In this document: positions 3,535 to 16,974 of the stretch, piece by piece
Layout of the letters: the number at the start of each line of letters is the position of its first letter
How positions within the stretch are numbered: the first letter of the stretch is position 1
NCBI RefSeq assembly: GCF_010731675.1
Contig: NZ_AP022584.1
Location: 2,480,001-2,544,000 of the forward strand
DNA from: Mycobacterium marseillense
Lineage (GTDB): Bacteria > Actinomycetota > Actinomycetes > Mycobacteriales > Mycobacteriaceae
Direction: 5' to 3'
Length of the DNA: 64,000 nucleotides
Position numbers and translations under genes: made by a program
Notes under the pieces: generated by a model
What the model saw: the letters and a program-made list of their open reading frames with translations, nothing else
What the model was told of the DNA's origin: nothing
The model's database searches: none

Positions 3535-4932
3535 ATGACCGATTCCGGTTCCCCCCAAACCACCGCCCGCTCCCGCGTCAAACGGCGCGACCATAAGTCC
3601 GCGGTCGGGCTGCAACCGCACAAACGCACCGGCGTCGACATCGCCATCGCGCTCATCACCCCGCTCGTCGGCCAGGAATTCCTGGACAAGTACCGGCTGC
3701 GCGACCCGCTCAACCGGGCCCTGCGCTACGGCACGAAGACGGTCTTCTCGACGGCCGCGACGACGTCTCGTCAGTTCACGAAGGTCCAGAATCTGCGCAC
3801 CGGGCCGACCCGGCTCAAGTCCAGCGGCAAGGACTATTTCGACCTGACGCCCGACGACGAGCAGAAGATGATCGTCGAGACCCTCGATGAATTCGCCGAA
3901 GAAGTGCTGCGGCCCGCGGCGCACGATGCCGACGAGGCGGCCACCTACCCCCGCGACCTCATCGCCAAGGCCGCCGAGCTGGGCATCACCGCGATCAACA
4001 TTCCCGAGGATTTCGACGGCATCGCCGCGCACCGCTCCAGCGTGACCAACGTGCTGGTCGCCGAGGCGCTCGCCTACGGCGACATGGGTTTGGCGTTGCC
4101 GCTGCTGGCGCCCGGCGGCGTCGCCTCCGCGCTGACCCATTGGGGCAGCGCCGATCAGCAGGCCACCTACCTGCCGGAGTTCGCCGGCGAGAACGTGCCG
4201 CAGGCCTGCGTCGCCATCGCCGAACCGCAACCGCTCTTCGACCCCACCCGGCTCAAGACGACCGCGGTGCGCACCCCCAGTGGCTACCGCCTCGACGGGG
4301 TGAAGTCCTTGGTGCCGGCCGCGGCCGACGCCGAGCTTTTCATCATCGGCGCCCAGCTCGACGGCAAGCCGGCCCTGTTCATCGTCGAGTCGTCGGCGAA
4401 AGGCCTGACGGTAAAGGCCGATCCGAGCATGGGACTCCGCGCGGCGGCCCTGGGTCACGTCGAGCTCTCCGGGGTGTCGGTGCCGCTGAGCGCGCGCCTC
4501 GGTGAGGACGACGCCGCCGGTCAGGATTACTCCGAAGCGATCGCGCTGTCCCGCCTGGGCTGGGCGGCGCTGACGGTCGGCACGTCGCACGCCGTGCTCG
4601 ACTACGTCGTCCCCTACGTGAAGGAACGTGAGGCCTTCGGCGAACCGATCGCGCATCGCCAGGCGGTGGCCTTCATGTGCGCCAACATCGCCATCGAATT
4701 GGACGGGCTGCGGCTGATCACCTGGCGCGGCGCGGCGCGCGCCGAGCAGGGCCTGCCGTTCATCCGTGAAGCGGCGCTGGCCAAGCGGCTCGGCGCCGAC
4801 AAGGGCATGCAGATCGGCCTCGACGGCGTTCAGCTGCTGGGCGGCCACGGCTACACCAAAGAGCACCCGGTCGAGCGCTGGTACCGCGACCTGCGGGCCA
4901 TCGGCGTCGCCGAGGGCGTCGTCGTCATCTAG
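3535..4932 (+). CDS. fadE24: Acyl-CoA dehydrogenase FadE24
   Basis: A 465-residue acyl-CoA dehydrogenase, matching Rv3139 in size and position. An unusual basic N-terminal extension of about 100 residues precedes the ACAD helical domain; the C-terminal domain includes G-G-H-G-Y-T and V-E-R-W-Y-R-D. The protein stops five residues after the E-G-V (Glu460) that aligns with the usual catalytic E-G-T, so the final C-terminal helix seen in fadE23 is missing. FadE23/FadE24 are adjacent, unequal ACADs, the pattern of mycobacterial alpha2-beta2 heterotetramers; FadE24 is probably the non-catalytic or FAD-supporting partner. The M. tuberculosis gene is known as isoniazid-responsive. Its palindromic operator lies just upstream. 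Confidence 0.92.
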   Translation: MTDSGSPQTTARSRVKRRDHKSAVGLQPHKRTGVDIAIALITPLVGQEFLDKYRLRDPLNRALRYGTKTVFSTAATTSRQFTKVQNLRTGPTRLKSSGKDYFDLTPDDEQKMIVETLDEFAEEVLRPAAHDADEAATYPRDLIAKAAELGITAINIPEDFDGIAAHRSSVTNVLVAEALAYGDMGLALPLLAPGGVASALTHWGSADQQATYLPEFAGENVPQACVAIAEPQPLFDPTRLKTTAVRTPSGYRLDGVKSLVPAAADAELFIIGAQLDGKPALFIVESSAKGLTVKADPSMGLRAAALGHVELSGVSVPLSARLGEDDAAGQDYSEAIALSRLGWAALTVGTSHAVLDYVVPYVKEREAFGEPIAHRQAVAFMCANIAIELDGLRLITWRGAARAEQGLPFIREAALAKRLGADKGMQIGLDGVQLLGGHGYTKEHPVERWYRDLRAIGVAEGVVVI

Positions 4933-4975
4933 CAGTCATCCAAGTCGTTAACTCATTCGAGCTGAAAGTTCAATC

Positions 4976-6181
4976 ATGGCAATTAATCTGGAACTGCCCC
5001 GCAAGATGCAAGCGGTGACGACCAAGACGCACCAGGGCGCCGCCGAGTTGATGCGGCCGATCGCCCGCAAGTACGACCTCAAGGAACACGCCTACCCGGT
5101 CGAGCTCGACACACTGTTCAGCCTCTTCGAAGGGGCTTCGGAGTCAATCGAATTCGCCGGAGCGAACGCGCTGGGCGGCGAGGACGAAGAACGGGACAAG
5201 AACCACAACGGCGCCAACATGGCCGCGCTGCTCCAGACGCTGGAAGCCAGCTGGGGCGACCTCGCGATGATGCTGTCGGTCCCCTACCAGGGGCTGGGCA
5301 ACGCCGCGATCTCCGCGGTGGCGAACGAAGAGCAGCTGCAACGCCTGGGCAAGGTGTGGGCGGCAATGGCGATCACCGAACCCGGCTTCGGATCGGACTC
5401 GGCGGCGGTCGCGACGACCGCCACCCTGGACGGCGACGAGTACGTGATCAACGGCGAGAAGATCTTCGTCACCGCCGGGTCGCGCGCCACCCACATCGTG
5501 GTGTGGGCGACCCTGGACAAGTCCCAGGGTCGCGCGGCGATCAAGTCGTTCGTCGTGCCGCGCGAGCACCCGGGTGTCACCGTCGAACGGCTCGAGCACA
5601 AGCTGGGCATCAAGGGTTCCGACACCGCCGCCATCCGGTTCGACAACGCCCGCATTCCGAAGGAAAACCTGCTCGGCAACCCCGAAATCGAGGTCGGCAA
5701 GGGCTTTTCGGGCGTCATGGAGACCTTCGACAACACCCGGCCGATCGTCGCCGCCATGGCCGTGGGTGTGGGCCGCGCGGCGCTGGAGGAAATTCGCAAG
5801 ATCCTCACCGAGGCCGGCGTGGAGATCTCCTACGACCGGCCATCGCACGTTCAGAGCGCGGCGGCGGCGGAGTTCTTGCGCATGGAAGCCGACTGGGAGG
5901 CGGCCTACCTGCTGTCGCTGCGGGCGGCCTGGCAGGCCGACAACAAGATCCCCAACTCCAAAGAAGCGTCGATGAGCAAGGCCAAGGCCGGCCGGATGGT
6001 CACCGACGTCACGCTGAAGTCCGTCGAATTGGCCGGCACCGCAGGCTATTCCGAACAGACTCTGCTGGAGAAGTGGGCGCGCGACTCGAAGATCCTGGAC
6101 ATCTTCGAGGGCACCCAGCAGATCCAGCAGCTGGTGGTCGCGCGCCGACTGCTGGGCCTGTCCTCGGCCGAGCTCAGGTAG
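4976..6181 (+). CDS. fadE23: Acyl-CoA dehydrogenase FadE23
   Basis: A 401-residue ACAD, 43 bp after fadE24 and surely in the same operon. It has the FAD-binding W-A-A-M-A-I-T-E-P-G-F-G-S-D-S region near residues 128-142, the A-G-T-A-G-Y segment, and a complete C-terminus with the catalytic Glu at residue 378 (I-F-E-G-T-Q-Q-I-Q). It likely supplies the catalytic base for a FadE23-FadE24 heterotetramer that introduces the alpha-beta double bond into an unidentified acyl-CoA, passing electrons to EtfAB. The last 8 bases overlap the end of the convergent aldo-keto reductase gene. Confidence 0.92.
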   Translation: MAINLELPRKMQAVTTKTHQGAAELMRPIARKYDLKEHAYPVELDTLFSLFEGASESIEFAGANALGGEDEERDKNHNGANMAALLQTLEASWGDLAMMLSVPYQGLGNAAISAVANEEQLQRLGKVWAAMAITEPGFGSDSAAVATTATLDGDEYVINGEKIFVTAGSRATHIVVWATLDKSQGRAAIKSFVVPREHPGVTVERLEHKLGIKGSDTAAIRFDNARIPKENLLGNPEIEVGKGFSGVMETFDNTRPIVAAMAVGVGRAALEEIRKILTEAGVEISYDRPSHVQSAAAAEFLRMEADWEAAYLLSLRAAWQADNKIPNSKEASMSKAKAGRMVTDVTLKSVELAGTAGYSEQTLLEKWARDSKILDIFEGTQQIQQLVVARRLLGLSSAELR

Positions 6182-7053: not shown

Positions 7054-8052
7054 ATGGACACGTTTCACGCGCTCGTCGCGCGCCACGATGGTGACCGGAT
7101 AACCGCATCGGTCGAGACACTTTGTCCCGATGACCTGCCACCCGGGGACGTGACGATCCGGGTCCTGTATTCGAGCGTCAACTACAAAGACGCCCTGGCA
7201 CTGACTCCGGGCGGCGGCGTGGTGCGCGACTATCCGGTGGTGCCGGGCATCGATTTGACCGGCGAGGTCGTGGAGTCCACCGCACCCGAGTTCGCCGTCG
7301 GCGACGCGGTGCTGGCCCACGGCTATGCGATCGGCACGGGCCACCACGGCGGCTACGCCGAATACGCACGGTTGCCGGCCGACCAGGTGGTGGCGCTCGG
7401 CGCGTTGAGCCCGCACGAGGGCGCAGCGATCGGAACCGCGGGCTTCACCGCGGCGATGAGCGTGCAGGCGCTGATCGACTGGGGCATTGCGCCCGATGCG
7501 GGTGCCATCGTGGTCACCGGGGCCACCGGCGGTGTCGGCTCGGTCAGCGTCGACCTGCTGGCGGCCGCCGGGTACCGGGTGGTGGCCTCGACCGGCAAAG
7601 CCGACGCCGCCGACCGCCTGAAAGCCCTTGGTGCCGCGGAGGTTATCGGCCGCCTGCCCGCCGATCCCGACGCCAAGCCTCGACCGCTCGGCAAGGCACG
7701 CTGGGCGGGCGCGGTGGACTGCGTGGGCGGGGCGACGCTCGCCGACGTGCTCAGCACCATCGACTACGGCGGCGCGGTGGCGGCCAGCGGCCTCACCGGC
7801 GGTCCCGCCCTGCACACCACGGTGATGCCGTTCATCCTGCGCGGTGTGGCGCTGCTGGGAATGGACTCGGTGCTGATGCCGATCGGGCCGCGCCGCGAAT
7901 TGTGGGCCCGGCTGGGTGATTCGTTGCGGCCGCGTCATCTGGCCGCGTTGGTCAGCGACGTCGACGTGAAGGACGTCGTCGGAGTGATCGATCAGGTCCG
8001 CGCCGGCAAGTTCTCCGGCCGCGCGGTGGTGCGGGTCGCGGGCGGTTTTTGA
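7054..8052 (+). CDS. YhdH/YhfP (AcuI)-type zinc-free medium-chain quinone/acrylyl-CoA reductase
   Basis: A 332-residue medium-chain dehydrogenase/reductase. The GroES-like N-terminal domain carries S-S-V-N-Y-K-D-A-L-A and P-G-I-D-L-T-G-E-V-V, both typical of YhdH/AcuI. A Rossmann domain follows (V-T-G-A-T-G-G-V-G-S-V near residues 153-163). E. coli AcuI reduces acrylyl-CoA to propionyl-CoA with NADPH, so detoxification of reactive enoyl-CoAs is a fair inference beside the fadE genes, but the substrate is unproven. It precedes fadB4 by 55 bp on the same strand. It probably has its own promoter, shared divergently with the aldo-keto reductase. Confidence 0.85.
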   Translation: MDTFHALVARHDGDRITASVETLCPDDLPPGDVTIRVLYSSVNYKDALALTPGGGVVRDYPVVPGIDLTGEVVESTAPEFAVGDAVLAHGYAIGTGHHGGYAEYARLPADQVVALGALSPHEGAAIGTAGFTAAMSVQALIDWGIAPDAGAIVVTGATGGVGSVSVDLLAAAGYRVVASTGKADAADRLKALGAAEVIGRLPADPDAKPRPLGKARWAGAVDCVGGATLADVLSTIDYGGAVAASGLTGGPALHTTVMPFILRGVALLGMDSVLMPIGPRRELWARLGDSLRPRHLAALVSDVDVKDVVGVIDQVRAGKFSGRAVVRVAGGF

Positions 8053-8107
8053 GGCGGCAGTAGGCTGGTCGAGCGCTTTATCCGAGGGCGATGACGACGG
8101 AGGTGGC

Positions 8108-9079
8108 ATGCGCGCGGTACGGGTGACTCGACTCGATGGTCCGGACGCGGTCGAGTTGGCCGACATCGACGAACCGACGGGCGACGGGGTCGTCGTCGAC
8201 GTGCACGCCGCCGGGGTGGCGTTCCCGGATGCCCTGCTCACGCGCGGCCTGTACCAATACCGCCCGGAGTTGCCGTTCGTCCTCGGCGCCGAGATCGCCG
8301 GCGTGGTCCGGTCGGCACCCGAGGGGGCGCACGTGCGTGCCGGTGACCGGGTCGTCGGCCTCACGATGCTCTCCGGCGCCATGGCCGAGGTCGCGATCTT
8401 GGCCCCCGACCGGGTGTTCAAGCTGCCCGACAACGTGAGCTTCGAGGCCGGCGCGGGCCTGCTCTTCAATGACCTGACGGTGTACTTCTCGCTCACCGTG
8501 CGGGGCCGGCTGCAGCGCGGCGAGACGGTGCTGGTCCACGGCGCGGCCGGCGGCATCGGCACCTCGGCGCTCCGGCTGGCGCCGGCGCTGGGGGCCTCGC
8601 GCACCATCGCCGTCGTCAGCACGCAGGACAAGGCCGACATCGCCACGGCCGCCGGCGCGACGGACGTGGTGCTGGCCGACGGGTTCAAGGACGCGGTCAA
8701 GGAGTTGACCCACGGCCGCGGCGTCGACATCGTCGTTGACCCGGTCGGCGGTGACCGGTTCACCGACTCCCTGCGCTCGCTCGCCCCCGGCGGACGACTG
8801 CTGGTCGTCGGATTCACTGGCGGCGAGATCCCGACTGTCAAGGTGAACCGATTGCTGCTCAACAACATTGACGTCGTCGGCGTGGGCTGGGGCGCGTGGG
8901 CGGGCACGCACCCGGGTGCGCTGGCCGAGCAGTGGGCCGGACTCGAGCGTCTGCTCACCTCCGGGGAACTGGCCCCGCCGGAGCCGGCGACCTACCCCCT
9001 GAAAGAAGCGGCCGCGGCGGTCGCCTCGCTGGAGAACCGCACCGCCAAGGGCAAGGTCGTGCTGCGCGTGCGCGATTGA
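8108..9079 (+). CDS. fadB4: NADPH:quinone oxidoreductase FadB4
   Basis: A 323-residue zeta-crystallin-like medium-chain reductase corresponding to Rv3141. The N-terminal GroES-like domain (L-P-F-V-L-G-A-E-I-A-G-V-V) is followed by an NADPH-binding Rossmann motif V-H-G-A-A-G-G-I-G-T-S near residues 143-153 and a G-R-L-L-V-V-G-F-T-G-G loop. It lacks the zinc-binding Cys set of alcohol dehydrogenases. The name fadB4 reflects old annotation; the fold says quinone or enoyl reductase rather than hydroxyacyl-CoA dehydrogenase. The start ATG has a GGAGG six bases upstream. A hairpin about 50 bp downstream may end the transcript. Confidence 0.9.
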   Translation: MRAVRVTRLDGPDAVELADIDEPTGDGVVVDVHAAGVAFPDALLTRGLYQYRPELPFVLGAEIAGVVRSAPEGAHVRAGDRVVGLTMLSGAMAEVAILAPDRVFKLPDNVSFEAGAGLLFNDLTVYFSLTVRGRLQRGETVLVHGAAGGIGTSALRLAPALGASRTIAVVSTQDKADIATAAGATDVVLADGFKDAVKELTHGRGVDIVVDPVGGDRFTDSLRSLAPGGRLLVVGFTGGEIPTVKVNRLLLNNIDVVGVGWGAWAGTHPGALAEQWAGLERLLTSGELAPPEPATYPLKEAAAAVASLENRTAKGKVVLRVRD

Positions 9080-9188: not shown

Positions 9189-9220
9189 CAAAACAAAAAG
9201 TAATGTCACTTTCAGTTTTG
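9189..9220. promoter_or_regulatory. 32-bp imperfect palindrome, candidate TetR operator of the catabolic operon
   Basis: This AT-rich island has two nested inverted repeats with one common centre (9204/9205): CAAAAC (9189-9194) with GTTTTG (9215-9220), and AAAGT (9197-9201) with ACTTT (9208-9212). Twelve of 16 positions pair. It ends 34 bp before the chosen start of the dioxygenase-like gene that opens the operon. The TetR protein encoded at 13752 within the same operon is the natural candidate ligand (inference). Confidence 0.5.
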
Positions 9221-9254
9221 TGACCGCCGAGCTTGTCTCATGGAGGAGCCGTCC

Positions 9255-10349
9255 ATGGAATCCTTTGTGCACCTGCGGAAAGGCCGAACGCCGCGCCGCC
9301 TGCATGCCGACCTCGACGGCCTCAAGGACGACGAGCTGGGCCGCGGCGGGTTCACCGGCCGCACCGCCAACCTCTACCGGCGCCACGACCCCACCGCGTA
9401 CCGGTCGGTCGGCCCGCTGCGCCCCCTCGACGTGCTGTCCAGCGAGCTCAAGCCCAGCGATGCCACGGACGCCGGCGGCGGGCCGCTGCTGATGTTCAGC
9501 AACGACGACTGCCGAATTCTGTTGAGCCGTCGCGCCGAACCGATGCCGTTCTATGCCCGTCACGTCGACGGCGACCTGCTGTGCTTCGTCCATGAGGGCA
9601 GCGGCCTGGCCGAGACCGAGTTCGGGCCGCTGCGCTATCGGGAGGGCGACTGGCTGTACATCCCGAAGGCGTGCACCTGGCGCCAGCTGCCCGATGCCGC
9701 GACGACGATGCTGATGATCGAGGCCGGCGACGAGTTTCGGATACCGCCGCCCGGCGCGCTGGGCCGCCACTTCCCCTTCGACCCGTCACAGGTCGTCATC
9801 CCCGAGCCGGCACCCGCCGCCGACGACGACTCCGGCGGCGAGTACGAGGTCCGACTGATCCACGAGGGCGGCCCGACAACGCTGTTCTACCAACACAATC
9901 CGCTCGACGTCGAGGGCTGGCGCGGTGACAACTTCGCGTTCACATTCAACATCGCCGACTACAACGTCGTCACCTCCGACAGCGTCCACCTGCCGCCGAC
10001 GGTGCACTTGTTCATGCAGGCCACCGGCGTCTACGTGATGAACTTCCTGCCCAAGCCCGCCGAGGGCGTCCCGGGCACCGAGCGCACCCCGTGGTATCAC
10101 CGCAACGTCGACTACGACGAGATCGCCTTCTTCCACGGCGGCTCGCTCTACGGCATCCCGATGCCACCCGGCTTGATTTCGCATGCGCCGCAAGGGGTTC
10201 ACCACGGCGCACCGGAGAAGGCACGCGAGCGGGCGCGCCGCAAGTTCGACGAATACTCCCGCGTCGACTGGCAGGTAATCGCCATCGACACCCGCCGGCG
10301 GTTGACCCCGTCGGCCGAAGTACTGGCCCACGACCTAGGACAACACTGA
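9255..10349 (+). CDS. Homogentisate 1,2-dioxygenase-like cupin enzyme
   Basis: A 364-residue bicupin of the homogentisate dioxygenase superfamily. The C-terminal W-Y-H-R-N-V-D-Y-D-E (His about 282, Glu about 289) and Q-G-V-H-H-G (about 316) match the His/Glu/His iron site of HmgA. The N-terminal cupin has the F-V-H-E-G-S-G and Y-R-E-G-D-W-L-Y-I-P-K pattern. It is shorter than canonical HmgA (about 430 residues), and no maleylacetoacetate isomerase is nearby, so the substrate is probably another hydroxy-aromatic or related compound. I chose the second ATG: GGAGGA at 9242-9247 sits 7 bp before it but inside the frame of the first ATG (9240). It opens the operon, with the next ATG directly after its stop. 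Confidence 0.8.
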   Translation: MESFVHLRKGRTPRRLHADLDGLKDDELGRGGFTGRTANLYRRHDPTAYRSVGPLRPLDVLSSELKPSDATDAGGGPLLMFSNDDCRILLSRRAEPMPFYARHVDGDLLCFVHEGSGLAETEFGPLRYREGDWLYIPKACTWRQLPDAATTMLMIEAGDEFRIPPPGALGRHFPFDPSQVVIPEPAPAADDDSGGEYEVRLIHEGGPTTLFYQHNPLDVEGWRGDNFAFTFNIADYNVVTSDSVHLPPTVHLFMQATGVYVMNFLPKPAEGVPGTERTPWYHRNVDYDEIAFFHGGSLYGIPMPPGLISHAPQGVHHGAPEKARERARRKFDEYSRVDWQVIAIDTRRRLTPSAEVLAHDLGQH

Positions 10350-11546
10350 ATGACCACCCCGGTGCAGCCCAAAAAGCACGAGTACGACCGCATCCCCTAT
10401 CTCGTTGCCTTTCAGAACAATTCCGGTGTCCGGGACGTCTACGGCGGTTTGGCCGAGATCACGGTGCTGGAAAGCTACCTGCTCAAGCCCAAGGACAACC
10501 CGTCGGAGACCGTGCTGGTGTTCATGCACCCGATCGGCGGTGGCGCCTACCTGCCGATGATCAACGCGCTGGCCCGCGCCGGTCATCACGTCATCTACTG
10601 CAACAGCCGCTTCCGCGGCACCGACTCGGCGCTGCTGATGGAGAAGGTGGTCGAGGACCTCGGCGAGTGCATCAAGGACGCCAAGAAGCGGCTGGGCTAT
10701 TCCAAGGTGGTGCTGGCCGGATGGAGTGGCGGCGGTTCGCTGTCGGTGTTCTACCAGCAGCAGGCCCAGAATCCGACGATCACGTCCAGCCCGACCGGCG
10801 ACGGCCCAGACCTGACCAAACTCGACCTGCCCGCGGCCGACGGCATCATGCTGCTGGCCGCGCACATCAGCCGGCACGGCACGCTGACCGAATGGCTGGA
10901 CGCGTCGATCCTCGACGAATCCGATCCCACCAAGCGCGATCCCGAGCTTGACCTGTACAACGCCGACAACCCGAACCAGCCGCCCTACAGCCAAGAATTC
11001 CTGGATCGGTACCGGCGGGCGCAGATCGACCGCAACCGCCGCATCACCGCGTGGGTCAAGGACAAGTTGGCCGAGCTGAAAGCCGCCGGCCGGCCGGACG
11101 ACGAGTTCGGGTTCGTCGTGCACGGCACCATGGCCGACCCGCGGTGGCTGGACCCAACCGTCGATCCCAACGAACGCGCCCCGGGGACGTGCTACCTGGG
11201 GGATCCTCAAGTGGTGAACATGAGTCCCGTCGGGCTGGCCCGGTTCTCCACGTTGCGCGGCTGGCTGTCGCAGTGGAGCTACGACGACGCCCGCGGCGAC
11301 GCCGTGTCCTGCGGCCCGGACATCGCGATCCCGGCGCTGGTGATCGGTAACCTGGCCGATGACGCGTGCACACCCAGCCACACCCGGCGGCTTTTTCAAG
11401 CGATCGGCCACCCCGACAAGGAGATACACGAAATTCCCGGCGCCACACATTATTACGCGGGACCCGACCAGCGCGACGCGCTGCGCGCGGCGGTCACCAT
11501 CGTCACCGACTGGCTGGTGCGCCACGACTTCGCGGGCGAAGGGTGA
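10350..11546 (+). CDS. Alpha/beta hydrolase
   Basis: A 398-residue alpha/beta-hydrolase. The nucleophile elbow is G-W-S-G-G-G-S with Ser at residue 126, and G-A-T-H-Y-Y near the C-terminus offers the catalytic His. A long insertion (about 150-290) forms a cap domain. Coupling is immediate, since its ATG follows the previous TGA without a gap. In this context it could hydrolyse a ring-cleavage product (C-C hydrolase type) or an ester/CoA intermediate; the sequence does not choose between these. The size and cap are larger than classical meta-cleavage hydrolases such as HsaD. Confidence 0.8.
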   Translation: MTTPVQPKKHEYDRIPYLVAFQNNSGVRDVYGGLAEITVLESYLLKPKDNPSETVLVFMHPIGGGAYLPMINALARAGHHVIYCNSRFRGTDSALLMEKVVEDLGECIKDAKKRLGYSKVVLAGWSGGGSLSVFYQQQAQNPTITSSPTGDGPDLTKLDLPAADGIMLLAAHISRHGTLTEWLDASILDESDPTKRDPELDLYNADNPNQPPYSQEFLDRYRRAQIDRNRRITAWVKDKLAELKAAGRPDDEFGFVVHGTMADPRWLDPTVDPNERAPGTCYLGDPQVVNMSPVGLARFSTLRGWLSQWSYDDARGDAVSCGPDIAIPALVIGNLADDACTPSHTRRLFQAIGHPDKEIHEIPGATHYYAGPDQRDALRAAVTIVTDWLVRHDFAGEG

Positions 11547-11550
11547 GCGC

Positions 11551-12756
11551 GTGAGACCATCGGGTCCGCTGGACGGCATCCGGGTGCTCGAACTGGGCAC
11601 CCTGATCGCCGGGCCCTTCGCCGGGCGGCTGCTGGGCGACATGGGCGCCGACGTCATCAAGGTGGAACTGCCCAAGGCCCCGGACCCGTTGCGCACCTGG
11701 GGTCAGGCCGAAGTCGACGGGCAGCACGTCTTCTGGACGGTGCACGCGCGCAACAAGCGAGCCATCACGCTCGACCTGCGTCACCCACGGGGCCGCGAGT
11801 TGTTCTGCGACCTCGTCGAAAAATCCGACATCGTGGTGGAGAACTTCCGCCCGGGCACCCTGGAGAAGTGGAACCTGGGCTACGACGTGCTGTCCGAGCG
11901 CAACCCCGGCATCATCCTGGTGCGCGTGTCCGGTTACGGGCAGACCGGACCCGACGCGTCCAAGGCCGGTTACGCGTCGGTCGCCGAGGCGGCCAGCGGA
12001 CTGCGGCACCTCAACGGTTTTCCGGGCGGCCCGCCGCCCCGGCTGGCGCTCTCGCTCGGTGACAGCCTGGCCGGCATGTTCGGCGCCCAGGGCGCGCTGG
12101 CCGCCCTGTACCGCCGCAGCGTCACCGGGCGCGGCCAGGTGGTCGACGTCGCGCTCACCGAATCCTGTTTGGCCGTCCAGGAATCCACGATTCCCGACTA
12201 CGACGTCGGCGGTGTGGTGCGCGGGCCGTCGGGCACCCGGCTCGAGGGCATTGCCCCGTCCAACATCTACCGCAGCGCCGACGGCTCGTGGGTGGTGATC
12301 GCCGCCAACCAGGACACCGTCTTCGCCCGGCTGTGCAAGGCCATGGGACGCCCGGAACTGGCCACCGACGACCGGTTCGCCACGCACGTCGCGCGTGGCC
12401 GCAACCAGGACGAGCTCGACAACATCATCGGCTGCTGGGCCGCTGAGCGCCAGCCGGGCGAGATCATCGAAACCCTTTCCGCCGCAGGCGTGATCGCGGG
12501 CCCGATCAACACGGTCGCCGAGGTCGTCGACGACCCGCAGCTGCGGGCCCGCGACATGCTGGTCGAGCACTACGACGAGCGGCTAGGGCGCAACGTCCTG
12601 GGGCCCGGCATCGTTCCGGTGCTCTCGGAATCTCCGGGCCGGCTGCGCAACGCCGGTCCCGCGCGACCGGGCGAGCACAACGACGACGTCTACGTCGGGT
12701 TGCTGGGCAAGACCGCCGAGGAACTCGAGGAGCTGCGGGCCCAGGAGGTGCTATGA
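11551..12756 (+). CDS. CaiB/BaiF (class III) CoA-transferase family protein
   Basis: A 401-residue family III acyl-CoA transferase. The N-terminus has G-I-R-V-L-E-L-G-T-L-I-A-G-P and A-D-V-I-K-V-E, followed by N-K-R-A-I-T-L-D-L and V-E-N-F-R-P-G-T-L-E-K, hallmark motifs of the fold. The catalytic Asp should lie in the S-L-G-D-S-L-A-G segment near residue 170. The GTG at 11551 is four bases after the previous stop. It probably converts the operon's carboxylic-acid intermediate to a CoA thioester using another acyl-CoA as donor. Its TGA stop is part of an ATGA that begins a MIRU-type repeat. Confidence 0.9.
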   Translation: MRPSGPLDGIRVLELGTLIAGPFAGRLLGDMGADVIKVELPKAPDPLRTWGQAEVDGQHVFWTVHARNKRAITLDLRHPRGRELFCDLVEKSDIVVENFRPGTLEKWNLGYDVLSERNPGIILVRVSGYGQTGPDASKAGYASVAEAASGLRHLNGFPGGPPPRLALSLGDSLAGMFGAQGALAALYRRSVTGRGQVVDVALTESCLAVQESTIPDYDVGGVVRGPSGTRLEGIAPSNIYRSADGSWVVIAANQDTVFARLCKAMGRPELATDDRFATHVARGRNQDELDNIIGCWAAERQPGEIIETLSAAGVIAGPINTVAEVVDDPQLRARDMLVEHYDERLGRNVLGPGIVPVLSESPGRLRNAGPARPGEHNDDVYVGLLGKTAEELEELRAQEVL

Positions 12757-12858
12757 CATGCACCGGCGACGATGCAGAGCGGCAGCGATGAGGAGGAGCG
12801 GTGCCATGACACGCACCGGCGACGATGCAGAGCGGCGGCGATGAGGAGGAGCGGTGCC
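12753..12858 (+). repeat. MIRU-type 53-bp tandem repeat, two copies
   Basis: Copy 1 (12753-12805) and copy 2 (12806-12858) are 53 bp each and differ at only two positions (12759/12812 and 12784/12837). Each begins ATGAC and contains ACCGGCGACGATGCAGAGC and GATGAGGAGGAGCGG, the known MIRU core. The array splits an original ATGA overlap: the left ATGA holds the CoA-transferase stop, and the right edge abuts the ATG of the next gene. This is the classical MIRU insertion site. The GGAGGAGCGG end of copy 2 supplies the ribosome-binding site for the downstream gene. Confidence 0.9.
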
Positions 12859-13752
12859 ATGACGCACGTGGAGATTCGAGAAGTGGCCCTGCGCGACGGC
12901 CTGCAGATCGAGGCGCCAATCCCGTTGTCGGCCAAGCTCGAACTGCTGGCCGCGGTGGCGGCCACCGGGGTCCGCGAGGTGGAGGCCACCGCATTCGTCT
13001 CGCCCTCGAAGGTGCCGTCGATGGCCGACGCGGCCGAGCTCGCCGCCCACCTGCACGACTATCCCGACATCGAATTCTCCGCGCTGGTCGCCAGCCCCAA
13101 CGGGGCCAGGCGGGCCATCGCCGCGGGCCTGCGCTCCATCGAGTACGTGGTGGCCGCCGACGACACGTTCAGCGAGGCCAACGTCGGGCGCACCAGCGCC
13201 GAGGCCACCGAGGCGATCGACGAGATCGTCGCCATTGCGCACGACGGCCCTGTCACCGTCGAGGTCGTCATCGCCACCGCCTGGGACTCCCCGTTCGAAG
13301 GCCCCACCCCGCCCGAGCGGGTGCTCGAGATCGCCGCGGCCGCGCGTGAGCGCGGCGCCGACCGCCTGTCGATCGCCGACACGATCGGCACCACCACCCC
13401 GGGCCGCGTGAGTTCGCTGATCGCGCAACTGCGTCCGGTGATCGGCGACATGCCGCTGGGCGGCCACTTCCACAACACCCGCGGGTCCGGCCTGGCCAGC
13501 GCGTACGCCGCGGTCACCGCCGGGGTGACCCGGCTGGACGCCTCGGTCGGCGGGCTGGGCGGCTGCCCCTTCGCCCCGGGCGCCACCGGCAACATCGCCA
13601 CCGAGGACCTGGTGTATCTGCTGCGCGACAGCGGCATCGACGTCGACGTCGACCTGCAGGCCGCCATCGCCGCGGCCGCGGTGGCGAAGTCGTTGGTGGG
13701 CCACGATCTGCCGAGCTCCCTGCTGCGCGCCGGCGACCGGATACAGAACTGA
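12859..13752 (+). CDS. Hydroxymethylglutaryl-CoA lyase-like protein
   Basis: A 297-residue HMGL/DRE-TIM metallolyase. It starts M-T-H-V-E-I-R-E-V-A-L-R-D-G-L-Q, where R-D-G-L-Q binds the metal and substrate. The C-terminal half has the G-G-H-F-H-N-T metal ligands and the catalytic Cys in G-L-G-G-C-P-F-A-P-G-A-T-G-N. HMG-CoA lyase cleaves 3-hydroxy-3-methylglutaryl-CoA to acetyl-CoA and acetoacetate; homologues split other 3-hydroxy-acyl-CoAs. The frame is open back through the repeat to 12772, but homology begins at the ATG at 12859. It probably carries out a late carbon-carbon cleavage in this operon. Confidence 0.88.
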   Translation: MTHVEIREVALRDGLQIEAPIPLSAKLELLAAVAATGVREVEATAFVSPSKVPSMADAAELAAHLHDYPDIEFSALVASPNGARRAIAAGLRSIEYVVAADDTFSEANVGRTSAEATEAIDEIVAIAHDGPVTVEVVIATAWDSPFEGPTPPERVLEIAAAARERGADRLSIADTIGTTTPGRVSSLIAQLRPVIGDMPLGGHFHNTRGSGLASAYAAVTAGVTRLDASVGGLGGCPFAPGATGNIATEDLVYLLRDSGIDVDVDLQAAIAAAAVAKSLVGHDLPSSLLRAGDRIQN

Positions 13753-14396
13753 TGTCCGCTTCGGAGGCGAGCCGCGAGCTGACCGCCAAAGGCCGCCAAA
13801 CCCGGCAGGCCATCGAGCAGGCCGCCCGCAAACTGTTCGCCGAGCGGGGCTTTCACGGCACCACGTTGGCCGACATCACGTCGGCCGCGGGGAAATCGCC
13901 GGCGGTGTTCTACCGCTACTTCGCCGACAAGGAAGACCTGCTGGCGGCGCTGGCGGAATCGTTTCTGCACGAGGTGGTCACGCCGTCGGGGCTGAGCGTC
14001 CACCTGCCGGACTCCCCCGACGACGACGCCTTCTTCACCTCGGTGGTCACCGGCTACTGGAACATGTTCAAGCAGAACATCGGCATCATGATCGCGGTGG
14101 CCCAGCTGGCCGCCACCCAGCAGCGCTTCGCCGCCGTGCAGAACGAATTCCGGCGCTTCGGCATGGATCTCGTCGCAGCCTCGGTGCGCCGCGCCCAGGA
14201 GCAGGGCCACGGCGCCGAGCTGCACCCCCAGCACACCGCGGCGGCCATCGCGTTGCTCTTCGAGAACTTCACCACCGTGGTTGTCGGGCCATCCGGCCCG
14301 GCGGGGCTGGGGGTGGACATCAGCGACGAGGACGCCATCGCGACCTTGTCGACGATCTGGAAGAAAACCTTGTACGGCGGCCTCACGAGGCCTTAG
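13752..14396 (+). CDS. TetR family transcriptional regulator
   Basis: A 214-residue TetR regulator. The N-terminal helix-turn-helix region spans about residues 15-62 (A-A-R-K-L-F-A-E-R-G-F-H-G-T-T then A-V-F-Y-R-Y-F-A-D-K-E-D-L). The C-terminal ligand domain is variable, with a W-N-M-F-K segment. The ATG overlaps the preceding TGA by one base (TGATG), so it is made with the catabolic enzymes. It is the likely repressor of its own operon, acting at the palindrome at 9189-9220 and released by a pathway CoA ester; this is inferred from position only. Confidence 0.88.
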   Translation: MSASEASRELTAKGRQTRQAIEQAARKLFAERGFHGTTLADITSAAGKSPAVFYRYFADKEDLLAALAESFLHEVVTPSGLSVHLPDSPDDDAFFTSVVTGYWNMFKQNIGIMIAVAQLAATQQRFAAVQNEFRRFGMDLVAASVRRAQEQGHGAELHPQHTAAAIALLFENFTTVVVGPSGPAGLGVDISDEDAIATLSTIWKKTLYGGLTRP

Positions 14397-14405
14397 GAGG
14401 AAAGC

Positions 14406-15644
14406 GTGGATTTCACTCTGCCCGAGCACCTTCCGGGCGTGCTCGCCGAGATGGACGAGTTCATCGAGGCCGAGATCAAACCGCTGGAACGCGAGAACAT
14501 CCAGTATTTCGACCAGCGTCGCGAGCACGCGCGCACCGACTGGGACAACGACGGCATTCCCACCCGCGAGTGGGAGGACCTGCTCGCCGAGATGCGCAGG
14601 CGCGCCGACAAGGCGGGCTGGCTGCGCTACGGCCTGCCGGCCTCGCTGGGCGGCCGCGACGGCAGCAACGTCGACATGGCCGTCATCCGGGAACGCCTGG
14701 CGCACAAGGGCCTTGGCCTGCACAACGACCTGCAGAACGAGTCGTCGATCGTCGGGAACTTCCCGCAGGTGATCATGATGGAGCGCTTCGGGACCGACGA
14801 GCAGCGCCGGGTGTGGTCGGAGGCGCTGATCACCGGGGAGCGTTCGATGGCCTTCGGGCTGACCGAGCCCAGGCACGGCTCGGATGCCACCTGGCTGGAA
14901 ACCCATGCCGAACGGGACGGCGATGCCTGGGTGATCAACGGCTCCAAGCGGTTCAACACCGGCGTGCACCGCGCCACCCACGATCTGGTCTTCGCGCGCA
15001 CCTCCGGTGAGCCGGGGGGTGCGCGCGGCATCACCGCGTTTCTGGTGCCCACCGATACGCCCGGATTCAACGTTCCCTACTACTGGTGGACGTTCAACAT
15101 GCCCACCGACCACGGCGAGGTCGAGCTGACCGATGTTCGGGTGCCCGCGGACGCGGTGCTCGGCGAGGTGGATCGCGGCCTGGAGGTGGCGCAAACCTTC
15201 CTGCACGAGAACAGGATTCGGCAAGCCGCCAGCAGCCTGGGCGCCGCGCAGTACTGCATCGACCGCGCTGCCGAATATGCCGGTGGCCGAACGGTGTTCG
15301 GCAAGCCGCTGTCGGTCAACCAGGCCGTGCAGTGGCCGCTGGCCGAGTTGCAGACCGAAGCGCAGATGGTGCGACTGCTGGTCGCCTACGCCGCCTGGCA
15401 CTTGGACCGCGACCACCACATGGAGGTCTCCGACAAGGTGTCGATGGCCAATTACCGCGCCAACCGGCTGGTCTGCGACGCCGCCGATCGCGCCATGCAG
15501 ATCTTCGGCGGCCTCGGCTACAGCCGGCACGAACCGTTCGAACACATCTACCGGCATCACCGCCGGTACCGGATCACCGAGGGTGCCGAGGAGATCCAGA
15601 TCCGCCGAGTGGCGCAGCGGCTCTTCAAATTCGGCCGCAAATGA
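14406..15644 (+). CDS. Acyl-CoA dehydrogenase, ACAD10/11- or LvaC-like by context
   Basis: A 412-residue ACAD with a strong AGGAGG site before its ATG. It has the FAD-contact stretch F-G-L-T-E-P-R-H-G-S-D, the R-T-V-F-G-K-P-L-S-V-N-Q region, F-G-G-L-G-Y-S, and the catalytic Glu at residue 392 in I-T-E-G-A-E-E-I-Q. Its stop overlaps the start of a phosphotransferase-like kinase (ATGA), itself overlapping a DUF6285-like gene. This gene trio parallels Pseudomonas LvaC-LvaA-LvaB and mammalian ACAD10/11, where the dehydrogenase-fold partner acts on a 4-phosphoacyl-CoA with loss of phosphate. A standard beta-oxidation ACAD is the alternative. Confidence 0.9.
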   Translation: MDFTLPEHLPGVLAEMDEFIEAEIKPLERENIQYFDQRREHARTDWDNDGIPTREWEDLLAEMRRRADKAGWLRYGLPASLGGRDGSNVDMAVIRERLAHKGLGLHNDLQNESSIVGNFPQVIMMERFGTDEQRRVWSEALITGERSMAFGLTEPRHGSDATWLETHAERDGDAWVINGSKRFNTGVHRATHDLVFARTSGEPGGARGITAFLVPTDTPGFNVPYYWWTFNMPTDHGEVELTDVRVPADAVLGEVDRGLEVAQTFLHENRIRQAASSLGAAQYCIDRAAEYAGGRTVFGKPLSVNQAVQWPLAELQTEAQMVRLLVAYAAWHLDRDHHMEVSDKVSMANYRANRLVCDAADRAMQIFGGLGYSRHEPFEHIYRHHRRYRITEGAEEIQIRRVAQRLFKFGRK

Positions 15645-16639
15645 TGCACGACGACGAGTCGGCCGAGCTGACGGCCAAACTCGCCGGCCTCCTCACGTCG
15701 GCCGTCGGCGCCGAGACGGCGGTCGAGAACCTGCGCGCGCTGACCGGCGGCGCCAGCAGAACCACGTGGGCGTTCGAGTCCGTCATCGGTGGCCAACGCC
15801 GCTCGCTGATCCTGCGCACCGGCCCGCCCGACGACGTGCATGCCGGCATGGAACTCGAGGCCCGGTCGCAGGCCGCCGCCGCGGCCGCCGGCGCCCCGGT
15901 CCCCCACATCCTGATCGCCGACGATTCGCCTGCCGCACTGGGCAATCCGTTTCTGATCTGCGATGAGATCAAGGGCGAGACCATCGTGCGGCGCATCCAA
16001 CGCCAGCTCGACGCCGCCGACGGGCACGGCGGCCGCACCCGATTGCTGCAGCAGTGCGCGCAGGCGGCGGCCGCCATTCACCGCGCCGACCCGCACGGCC
16101 CGGGCCTGACCCACGAGGACCAACTCGACGAATGGCGCCGGCGCCTCGACGACATGGGCGACACCACCGCCACCTTCGAATGGGGGTTTCGCTGGCTGGC
16201 CGCCCATCGGCCCGAACCGACACCGGCGGTGCTGGTGCACGGCGACTTCCGGATGGGCAACCTCATCGTCGACGGCTCCAACCTTGCCGCCGTGCTGGAT
16301 TGGGAACTCGTGCACGTCGGCCAGGCATACGAAGACCTGGCGTGGTTCTGCATCCGCGCCTGGCGCTTCGGCGCGCCCGCCAGCATGGGCGCCGGCGGCC
16401 TCGGCAGCATCGAGAGCTTTCTGCAGGCCTACGAGCAGGCCAGCGCGACTACCGTCGACCGCGTGGCGTTTCACTGGTGGCTAATGCTGGCCACGCTGCG
16501 CTGGGGTGTCATCTGCCGATTCCAGGCGGAACGGCATCTGAGTGGTCAGCACCGTTCAGTCGAGTTGGCCACCATCGGACGCCGCGTCTGCGAGACCGAG
16601 TGGGACCTGCTCAACCTGCTCGAGGAGGCGGCCAAATGA
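15641..16639 (+). CDS. Aminoglycoside phosphotransferase-fold kinase, LvaA/ACAD-kinase-like
   Basis: A 332-residue APH-fold kinase. The catalytic loop V-H-G-D-F-R-M-G-N has its Asp at residue 202, and the metal-binding Asp is at 220 in V-L-D-W-E. The nucleotide-binding lobe has L-T-G-G-A-S-R-T-T-W. An antibiotic-resistance role is unlikely: it is coupled by ATGA overlaps to an acyl-CoA dehydrogenase upstream and a DUF6285-like gene downstream. LvaA of P. putida phosphorylates 4-hydroxyacyl-CoA, and the kinase domain of ACAD11 does the same. I infer that reaction here. Two ATGs are adjacent (15641, 15644); I use the overlapping first one. Confidence 0.87.
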   Translation: MMHDDESAELTAKLAGLLTSAVGAETAVENLRALTGGASRTTWAFESVIGGQRRSLILRTGPPDDVHAGMELEARSQAAAAAAGAPVPHILIADDSPAALGNPFLICDEIKGETIVRRIQRQLDAADGHGGRTRLLQQCAQAAAAIHRADPHGPGLTHEDQLDEWRRRLDDMGDTTATFEWGFRWLAAHRPEPTPAVLVHGDFRMGNLIVDGSNLAAVLDWELVHVGQAYEDLAWFCIRAWRFGAPASMGAGGLGSIESFLQAYEQASATTVDRVAFHWWLMLATLRWGVICRFQAERHLSGQHRSVELATIGRRVCETEWDLLNLLEEAAK

Positions 16640-16974
16640 TCGGCGCCTACGGCCGCCCGCTGGCGGCAGAACTCGTGGCCGCCGTCGCCGAATTCCTGGA
16701 GACCGACGTGCGGGCGGCGACCGACGGACAGGTCAACTTCCACGCCAGGGTGGCGGCCAACGCGCTGCGCATCGTCGAGCGCGAACTGCTCGACGAAAGC
16801 GAGGCCGAATCCCGCGCGGCGCTGGCCGGCTTGGGTGTCGCCGACGAGGAACAGCTGGCCACCGCCATCCGGTCCGGCGAAATGGACGACCGGGCGGCCG
16901 ACGTCACGACGTGCCTACGCACCCTGGTACGACGCCGCCTTGCCGTCGCCCACCCCGGATACGACAGCGAATAG
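16636..16974 (+). CDS. DUF6285-like small protein, LvaB-like kinase partner
   Basis: A 112-residue, helix-rich acidic protein starting M-I-G-A-Y-G-R-P in an ATGA overlap with the kinase gene. It contains F-H-A-R-V-A-A-N-A-L-R-I-V-E-R-E, an amphipathic helix typical of the family I recall as DUF6285. In the levulinate pathway, the small protein LvaB is required for the LvaA kinase to work; equal size, order and coupling suggest the same partnership. No catalytic motif is evident. Family naming is from memory and should be checked by profile search. Confidence 0.78.
   Translation: MIGAYGRPLAAELVAAVAEFLETDVRAATDGQVNFHARVAANALRIVERELLDESEAESRAALAGLGVADEEQLATAIRSGEMDDRAADVTTCLRTLVRRRLAVAHPGYDSE

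Follow-up and report, generated by a model that had tools for sequence, protein, structure and literature searches.

A putative second type of kinase-coupled acyl-CoA dehydrogenase module in Mycobacterium marseillense

Acyl-coenzyme A (acyl-CoA) dehydrogenases (ACADs) that are coupled to a kinase have been explained only recently, in papers of 2024 and 2025 on ACAD10 and ACAD11. In two reports, enzymes of the LvaC type follow a phosphorylation at C4: loss of the phosphate, dependent on flavin adenine dinucleotide (FAD), gives a 2-enoyl-CoA with no added electron acceptor (PMC12440821, PMC11342911). We know the lva operon from these two reports and from an lva-type operon on plasmid NZ_MF344569 (locus L142). 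Here we describe a related gene trio in a 64,000-nucleotide window of M. marseillense, the whole stretch analyzed, whose numbering is used throughout. A sequence-only reading had called the trio an LvaC-LvaA-LvaB-like module. What we find is a genuine variant of kinase-coupled ACAD systems, with a wide distribution, in which that label fits two of the three proteins and fails for the dehydrogenase.

The three genes, read directly from the sequence, lie head to tail:

14406 to 15644, + strand: E-type acyl-CoA dehydrogenase, 412 residues, GTG start, catalytic Glu392 (Pfam; tree clade; residues)
15641 to 16639, + strand: LvaA-like APH-fold kinase, 332 residues, ATG start (PF01636, 110 bits; tree; catalytic Asp pair)
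16636 to 16974, + strand: DUF6285 or LvaB-type protein, 112 residues (PF19802, 88.2 bits, cut-off 28.1)

The ACAD start is preceded by AGGAGG, and ATGA overlaps at 15641-15644 and 16636-16639 join the ACAD to the kinase and the kinase to the DUF6285 gene, as the earlier reading had said. Pfam scores the ACAD at 156.9 (Acyl-CoA_dh_1), 72.9 (_M) and 36.6 (_N) bits.

The dehydrogenase and its active site

In ACAD11 the catalytic residue is D753, and the 4-phosphate is held by R626, H634 and R637, all on one helix; the same source gives LvaC, ACAD10 and ACAD11 alike a catalytic Asp and an Arg/His/Arg site for the 4-phosphate (PMC12440821). The LvaC of L142 has Arg, Arg, His and Arg at the same spacing as ACAD11, plus the Asp. 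The window ACAD differs: Phe265, Gln273 and Ser276 stand at the R626, H634 and R637 sites and Glu392, within RITEGAEE, stands at the Asp site. This Glu occupies what we take to be the position of Glu376 in MCAD. The sequence-only reading was right that the catalytic Glu is intact but counted it as a likeness to LvaC, whereas it is the main difference.

We refer to ACADs of this kind as E-type and to LvaC-like ones as D-type. Among 113 E-type rows (the window protein and 112 relatives), chosen by score alone, Phe, Gln and Glu occur in all 113, and the third site is Ser in 106, Gly in 5 and Ala in 2; the shared Arg (R631 of ACAD11, R270 of the window) is kept in 113 of 113. The D-type rows (23, with three genes present twice, hence 20 distinct) were selected with a pattern containing Arg/His/Arg and Asp, those of the window genome by eye, so that their 23 of 23 agreement holds by construction. 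E-type proteins also share an invariant Asn349, which is Lys in all D-type and other ACAD rows aligned, an extra invariant insert at about residues 35-45, and the invariant, clade-specific residues Arg272, His157, His384, His385 and Arg387. The replacement of Arg/His/Arg by Phe265, Gln273 and Ser276 suggests that a phosphate would be bound elsewhere or would sit on another carbon.

The phylogeny agrees with this division. In a careful ACAD tree of 49 of 70 rows (the 21 dropped being long, near-identical or distant), the E-type proteins form one clade (support 100/100) that joins the D-type at 100/98. The neighboring D-type clade contains the LvaC of L142; ACAD10 and ACAD11 themselves are not among the tree rows. 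A further 17 ACADs, mostly from the window genome, fall outside the joint clade. The window ACAD thus shares its catalytic Glu with ordinary beta-oxidation ACADs but groups with the kinase-partnered D-type. Judged by residues and tree together, it is not an LvaC, and belongs to a separate clade sister to the LvaC type.

The E-type clade in turn has a haloarchaeal ACAD (L153, 4116-6197) as its sister (99/99). This protein carries the TEPxHGSDA motif and a Glu, in LTEGTDE; it lacks the E-type Phe and Gln and has a kinase nearby. From these features it is a possible third type.

Could the E-type trio simply run the LvaABC route, turning 4-hydroxyacyl-CoA into 2-enoyl-CoA at the expense of adenosine triphosphate (ATP)? 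It has the same kinase and LvaB-type partners, its ACAD shares a clade with the LvaC type, and the top structural match of the predicted ACAD fold is ACAD11, by a small margin. Yet none of the 113 rows retains the Asp or any of the three phosphate residues. Moreover, the window genome (G000) has at least five D-type ACADs of its own (L070, L074, L077, L079, L081). Near three of them (L077, L079, L081) an APH kinase lies no more than about 1.1 kb away, so the 4-hydroxy route is probably already covered and the E-type gene is not likely just to duplicate it. The own-genome pairs (L117-L119) resemble the window in having ACAD and APH kinase close together but carry D-type residues, have no DUF6285, and have kinases that score only 45-69 bits against the window kinase. 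We consider an LvaABC route for the trio unlikely.

The kinase, DUF6285 and their linkage to the dehydrogenase

The kinase catalytic residues are intact, as had been read from the sequence: the window protein has the motifs HGDFRMGN and LDWE, and all 80 kinases that adjoin E-type ACADs, the window's among them, keep both catalytic Asp residues, as do all 13 that adjoin D-type ACADs. The kinase residues R86 and R176, proposed CoA contacts of ACAD11, proved of no use as a marker of acyl-CoA kinases: the stretches (at our numbering, which is one off) are unlike even in the LvaA of L142. A quick tree was built from the window kinase and 61 deduplicated rows. It unites five LvaA-type kinases of proteobacteria, each next to a D-type ACAD, in a clade (support 99), and it places the bacterial E-linked kinases within a 49-row group (support 90, range 81-91) that leaves out the haloarchaeal kinases. 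From this placement, kinase and ACAD types appear mostly, not strictly, matched.

The small gene of the L142 operon is annotated lvaB, 4-hydroxypentanoyl-CoA kinase subunit, and Pfam assigns its product to DUF6285 with 85.3 bits, the same family as the window protein. This bears out the DUF6285-like assignment made from the sequence. In sphingomonads the kinase and DUF6285 are one protein, and Pfam finds such APH-DUF6285 fusions in L182, L193, L194 and L228 (49.4, 45.5, 42.2 and 29.1 bits for the DUF6285 part). The window genome (5.5 Mb) carries a single DUF6285. An AlphaFold2 model of it has five helices (mean pLDDT 92.2); a fold search with this model returned 6 matches, all of them at E 0.001 or higher, a sequence search of the PDB gave no match up to E 1, and a literature search on the name DUF6285 found no paper. 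Kinase and small protein alike belong to the LvaA/LvaB type. Directly 3' of DUF6285 in three D-type operons we also noticed a histidine phosphatase gene (L138, 10267-10920; L145, 10397-11074; L146, 10430-11143).

An APH fold is also consistent with a regulator or resistance-type enzyme that has nothing to do with acyl-CoA and is merely co-transcribed, and the kinase has NCBIfam matches to APH(3') and thiamine kinase models. These matches are weak and far under the cut-offs, while the partner belongs to the family of an annotated 4-hydroxypentanoyl-CoA kinase subunit and the kinase co-occurs tightly with the ACAD, as described below; we find this explanation very improbable.

We read the best 80 of at least 466 confirmed E-type loci, ranked against a Sulfitobacter protein and therefore biased to proteobacteria; a scan of named genomes supplied them from sphingomonads, Caulobacterales, Burkholderiales, Marinobacter and others. 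With a kinase allowed within 1.5 kb and DUF6285 within 2.5 kb of the ACAD, a kinase threshold of 60 bits and a DUF6285 profile of our own, one or both lie near the ACAD in 53 of 80 loci (50 of 80 at an earlier threshold of 150 bits). A fused kinase-DUF6285 accounts for 25, a kinase with a separate DUF6285 for another 25, a kinase only for one (L164), and DUF6285 only for two, of which L159 lies where the contig ends and L220 has a fused kinase about 2 kb off. The next commonest neighbor family reaches 15 of the 80 loci. In the remaining 27 loci neither gene lies within the limits; all 26 of their genomes that were searched (that of L203 was left out) carry DUF6285. Over all 28 genomes searched the count is 27, the exception being that of L164. 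Around the distant DUF6285 of 11 genomes (L252-L262) a kinase is present in 11 of 11 and a listed ACAD in none.

Gene order varies: KIN-DUF6285-ACAD on a Sulfitobacter plasmid and DUF6285-KIN-ACAD on a Nocardia farcinica plasmid. Haloarchaeal loci L147-L150 have the ACAD, a protein of 157-159 residues and of no known family, and the kinase. Haloarchaeal frames of 157-190 residues at the DUF6285 position gave no PF19802 match in the four scanned and none with our DUF6285 profile. DUF6285 may have its archaeal counterpart in the protein of 157-159 residues. On the haloarchaeal plasmids of L148-L150 these genes lie beside hydantoinase/acetone-carboxylase-type genes.

Co-occurrence extends across wider samples. 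In a 296-genome phylum sample, DUF6285 is present in 26 genomes (25 over the cut-off) and the E-type ACAD in 13; all 13 are among the 26, and the other 13 DUF6285 genomes have no E-type ACAD. The hypergeometric chance of this is 6e-16, or 2e-10 when five genomes of the same genus are excluded, both figures ignoring shared ancestry. In the eight E-type genomes outside the genus, kinase and DUF6285 adjoin the ACAD in two (L110, L115). Within the genus, 135 of 148 genomes have both, 2 have DUF6285 only, 4 the E-type ACAD only and 7 neither. In each of the three E-type-only genomes read, out of the four, a kinase adjoins the ACAD and a small gene reaches 23-25 bits for DUF6285, under the cut-off. 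Conservation of the trio in the genus argues against chance.

Besides the neglect of ancestry in these statistics, several observations weigh against a kinase-coupled E-type module. For six of the eight E-type genomes outside the genus (L246-L251), the sequence read on either side of the ACAD holds no kinase, nor do the 19 kb read at plasmid locus L151. The kinase of L153 is nearer to a different ACAD, and in L160, L168 and L170 the kinase-DUF6285 lies 5-7 kb from the E-type ACAD, beside an ACAD of neither E nor D type. The 49-row kinase group, in which 21 rows are unlinked kinases, also holds the D-linked actinobacterial kinases of L106 and L139. Finally, residues 390-396 of the ACAD model, the catalytic loop, have pLDDT below 50.

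Some of these observations would fit an ordinary oxidizing ACAD placed ahead of or behind the kinase within a single pathway, desaturating a plain acyl-CoA with an electron acceptor while the kinase handles another intermediate. The catalytic Glu and the absence of the known phosphate site agree with this, as do the beta-oxidation genes close by in several loci and the three loci with the kinase pair beside another ACAD; a PDB sequence search with the window ACAD also finds its best matches in acyl-CoA dehydrogenases other than ACAD11 (165 bits, against 129 for ACAD11). Such an enzyme, however, would not be expected to lie outside the clade of the 17 other ACADs in the tree, to be tied to a kinase when the next commonest neighbor is so much rarer, or to carry unusual invariant residues such as Asn349. 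We regard an ordinary ACAD as possible but doubtful. Coupling of the E-type ACAD to the kinase is strongly supported by their co-occurrence.

The operon and its surroundings

The trio ends a tightly packed run of genes (9240-16974):

9197 to 9218, + strand: quasi-palindrome AAAGTAATGTCACTTTCAGTTT, candidate TetR operator (mycobacterial upstream alignment; genome scan)
9240 to 10349, + strand: homogentisate-dioxygenase-like cupin (PF20510, 24.2 bits, cut-off 20.2; PDB 3zds, 44.9 bits)
10350 to 11546, + strand: alpha/beta hydrolase with a GWSGG motif (Pfam Hydrolase_4/Abhydrolase_1), accessory and not universal with E-type ACADs
11359 to 12756, + strand: family III CoA-transferase, longest open reading frame (PF02515, 412.7 bits, match beginning at residue 71)
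12772 to 13752, + strand: HMG-CoA lyase-like (HMGL-like) enzyme, longest open reading frame, true start maybe further in (PF00682, 139.5 bits; NF004283, 266.3 bits, cut-off 246)
13752 to 14396, + strand: TetR-family regulator within the operon (PF00440, 60.9 bits; gene order shared by 11 of the 15 mycobacterial loci fetched)

The dioxygenase-like, CoA-transferase and HMGL-like neighbors named by the sequence-only reading are therefore real, and lie in one run with the trio. The CoA-transferase probably starts after the end of the hydrolase gene at 11546. Aligned with 3zds, the cupin retains both His and has Asp in place of the enzyme's Glu, at positions that we take to be the metal ligands of homogentisate dioxygenase. 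In 11 of the 15 fetched mycobacterial loci (L121-L125, L127-L136) the order is cupin, hydrolase, CoA-transferase, HMGL-like, TetR, ACAD, kinase, DUF6285; L130 and L134 have the operon without cupin, hydrolase and TetR. A decayed copy with most frames broken is found at about 5014-9452 of L121 (G088), in a same-genus genome of 3.2 Mb, and a second kinase-DUF6285 copy, with no ACAD found beside it, at 7907-9531 of L127 (G121), where L128 is the main copy.

We considered the hydrolase as a core member and rejected it, as orthologues above 360 bits occur in only 5 of 13 phylum and 6 of 30 proteobacterial E-type genomes. In L160, L168 and L170, relatives of the hydrolase (512-515 bits) adjoin the E-type ACAD, and the kinase-DUF6285 and an HMGL-like gene lie 5-8 kb off.

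The single candidate operator upstream of the run can be recognized, with some differences in sequence, in all 12 of the mycobacterial upstream regions that were aligned (window included), and a scan of the window genome at up to three mismatches found no other match. This conservation without a second site suggests that the local TetR is likely to serve this one operon.

Compared with the lva operon, the window run has a TetR regulator, and a CoA-transferase where lva has a CoA synthetase; a Pfam comparison of the operon and its neighbors with L142 found no short-chain dehydrogenase/reductase, acyl-CoA synthetase or transporter of lva type among the window operon genes. The kinase and ACAD, fused in mammalian ACAD10 and ACAD11, occur together here as separate proteins, and it is the kinase and DUF6285 that sphingomonads fuse instead; the E-type active site and the insert near residues 35-45 are further differences from ACAD10 and ACAD11.

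Upstream of the operon (3535-6181 and 7054-9079) lie two more ACAD genes, together with a gene resembling quinone oxidoreductases and an AcuI-like reductase that scores 413.4 bits with TIGR02823 (cut-off 297.25). The reductase and the oxidoreductase-like gene also have relatives close to the trio in L130, L133 and L134. The nuo genes follow from 18641. Near the start of the window is one further feature, of a family that marks mycobacteria:

1186 to 2280: PPE/PPE-SVP protein (Pfam)

Proposed function and meaning

We lean toward the view that the trio is a kinase-coupled ACAD module of a second, undescribed type. The E-type ACAD is not seen in the titles and opening lines of abstracts that our literature searches returned, and so may still be in print; a search on the operon found no paper. 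The sequence-only reading had proposed an undescribed pathway using the same chemistry, which holds in part: co-occurrence strongly upholds the kinase coupling, but not identical chemistry.

In our model, the kinase and DUF6285 would phosphorylate a hydroxyl of an acyl-CoA with ATP; that this first step matches the LvaC type is suggested by the identity of kinase and subunit. The FAD-bound ACAD would then take the alpha proton with Glu392 and promote loss of the phosphate, a step to which its sister-clade kinship and kinase coupling point, leaving an enoyl- or dienoyl-CoA for beta-oxidation. The phosphate would be held elsewhere, perhaps by Arg272, His157, His384, His385 or Arg387, and the reaction probably departs from that of 4-hydroxyacyl-CoA in hydroxyl position, chain type or redox outcome. 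In Mycobacterium, the cupin, hydrolase, CoA-transferase and HMGL-like lyase might conceivably convert a cyclic or lactone-type precursor into a hydroxy acid as its CoA ester.

More broadly, mycobacteria, other actinobacteria, proteobacteria and haloarchaea may hold a second class of enzymes in which a hydroxyl is phosphorylated and then removed by Glu-based chemistry with a different phosphate site. Such a class would open beta-oxidation to hydroxy acids (with the hydroxyl at another position, tertiary or cyclic) that LvaC, ACAD10 and ACAD11 cannot take, possibly with net oxidation where LvaC is redox-neutral. We see this wider proposal as evenly poised.

The finding points to a sister class of kinase-coupled ACADs, one with an LvaB-type kinase partner and without the known phosphate site. 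If this is true, phosphorylation followed by elimination would be a broader entry of hydroxy acids into beta-oxidation, DUF6285 would gain a role as part of a kinase, either a subunit or a domain, and what looks like one more ACAD gene, found in 139 of the 148 genomes sampled from the genus, would acquire a sharp and testable prediction.

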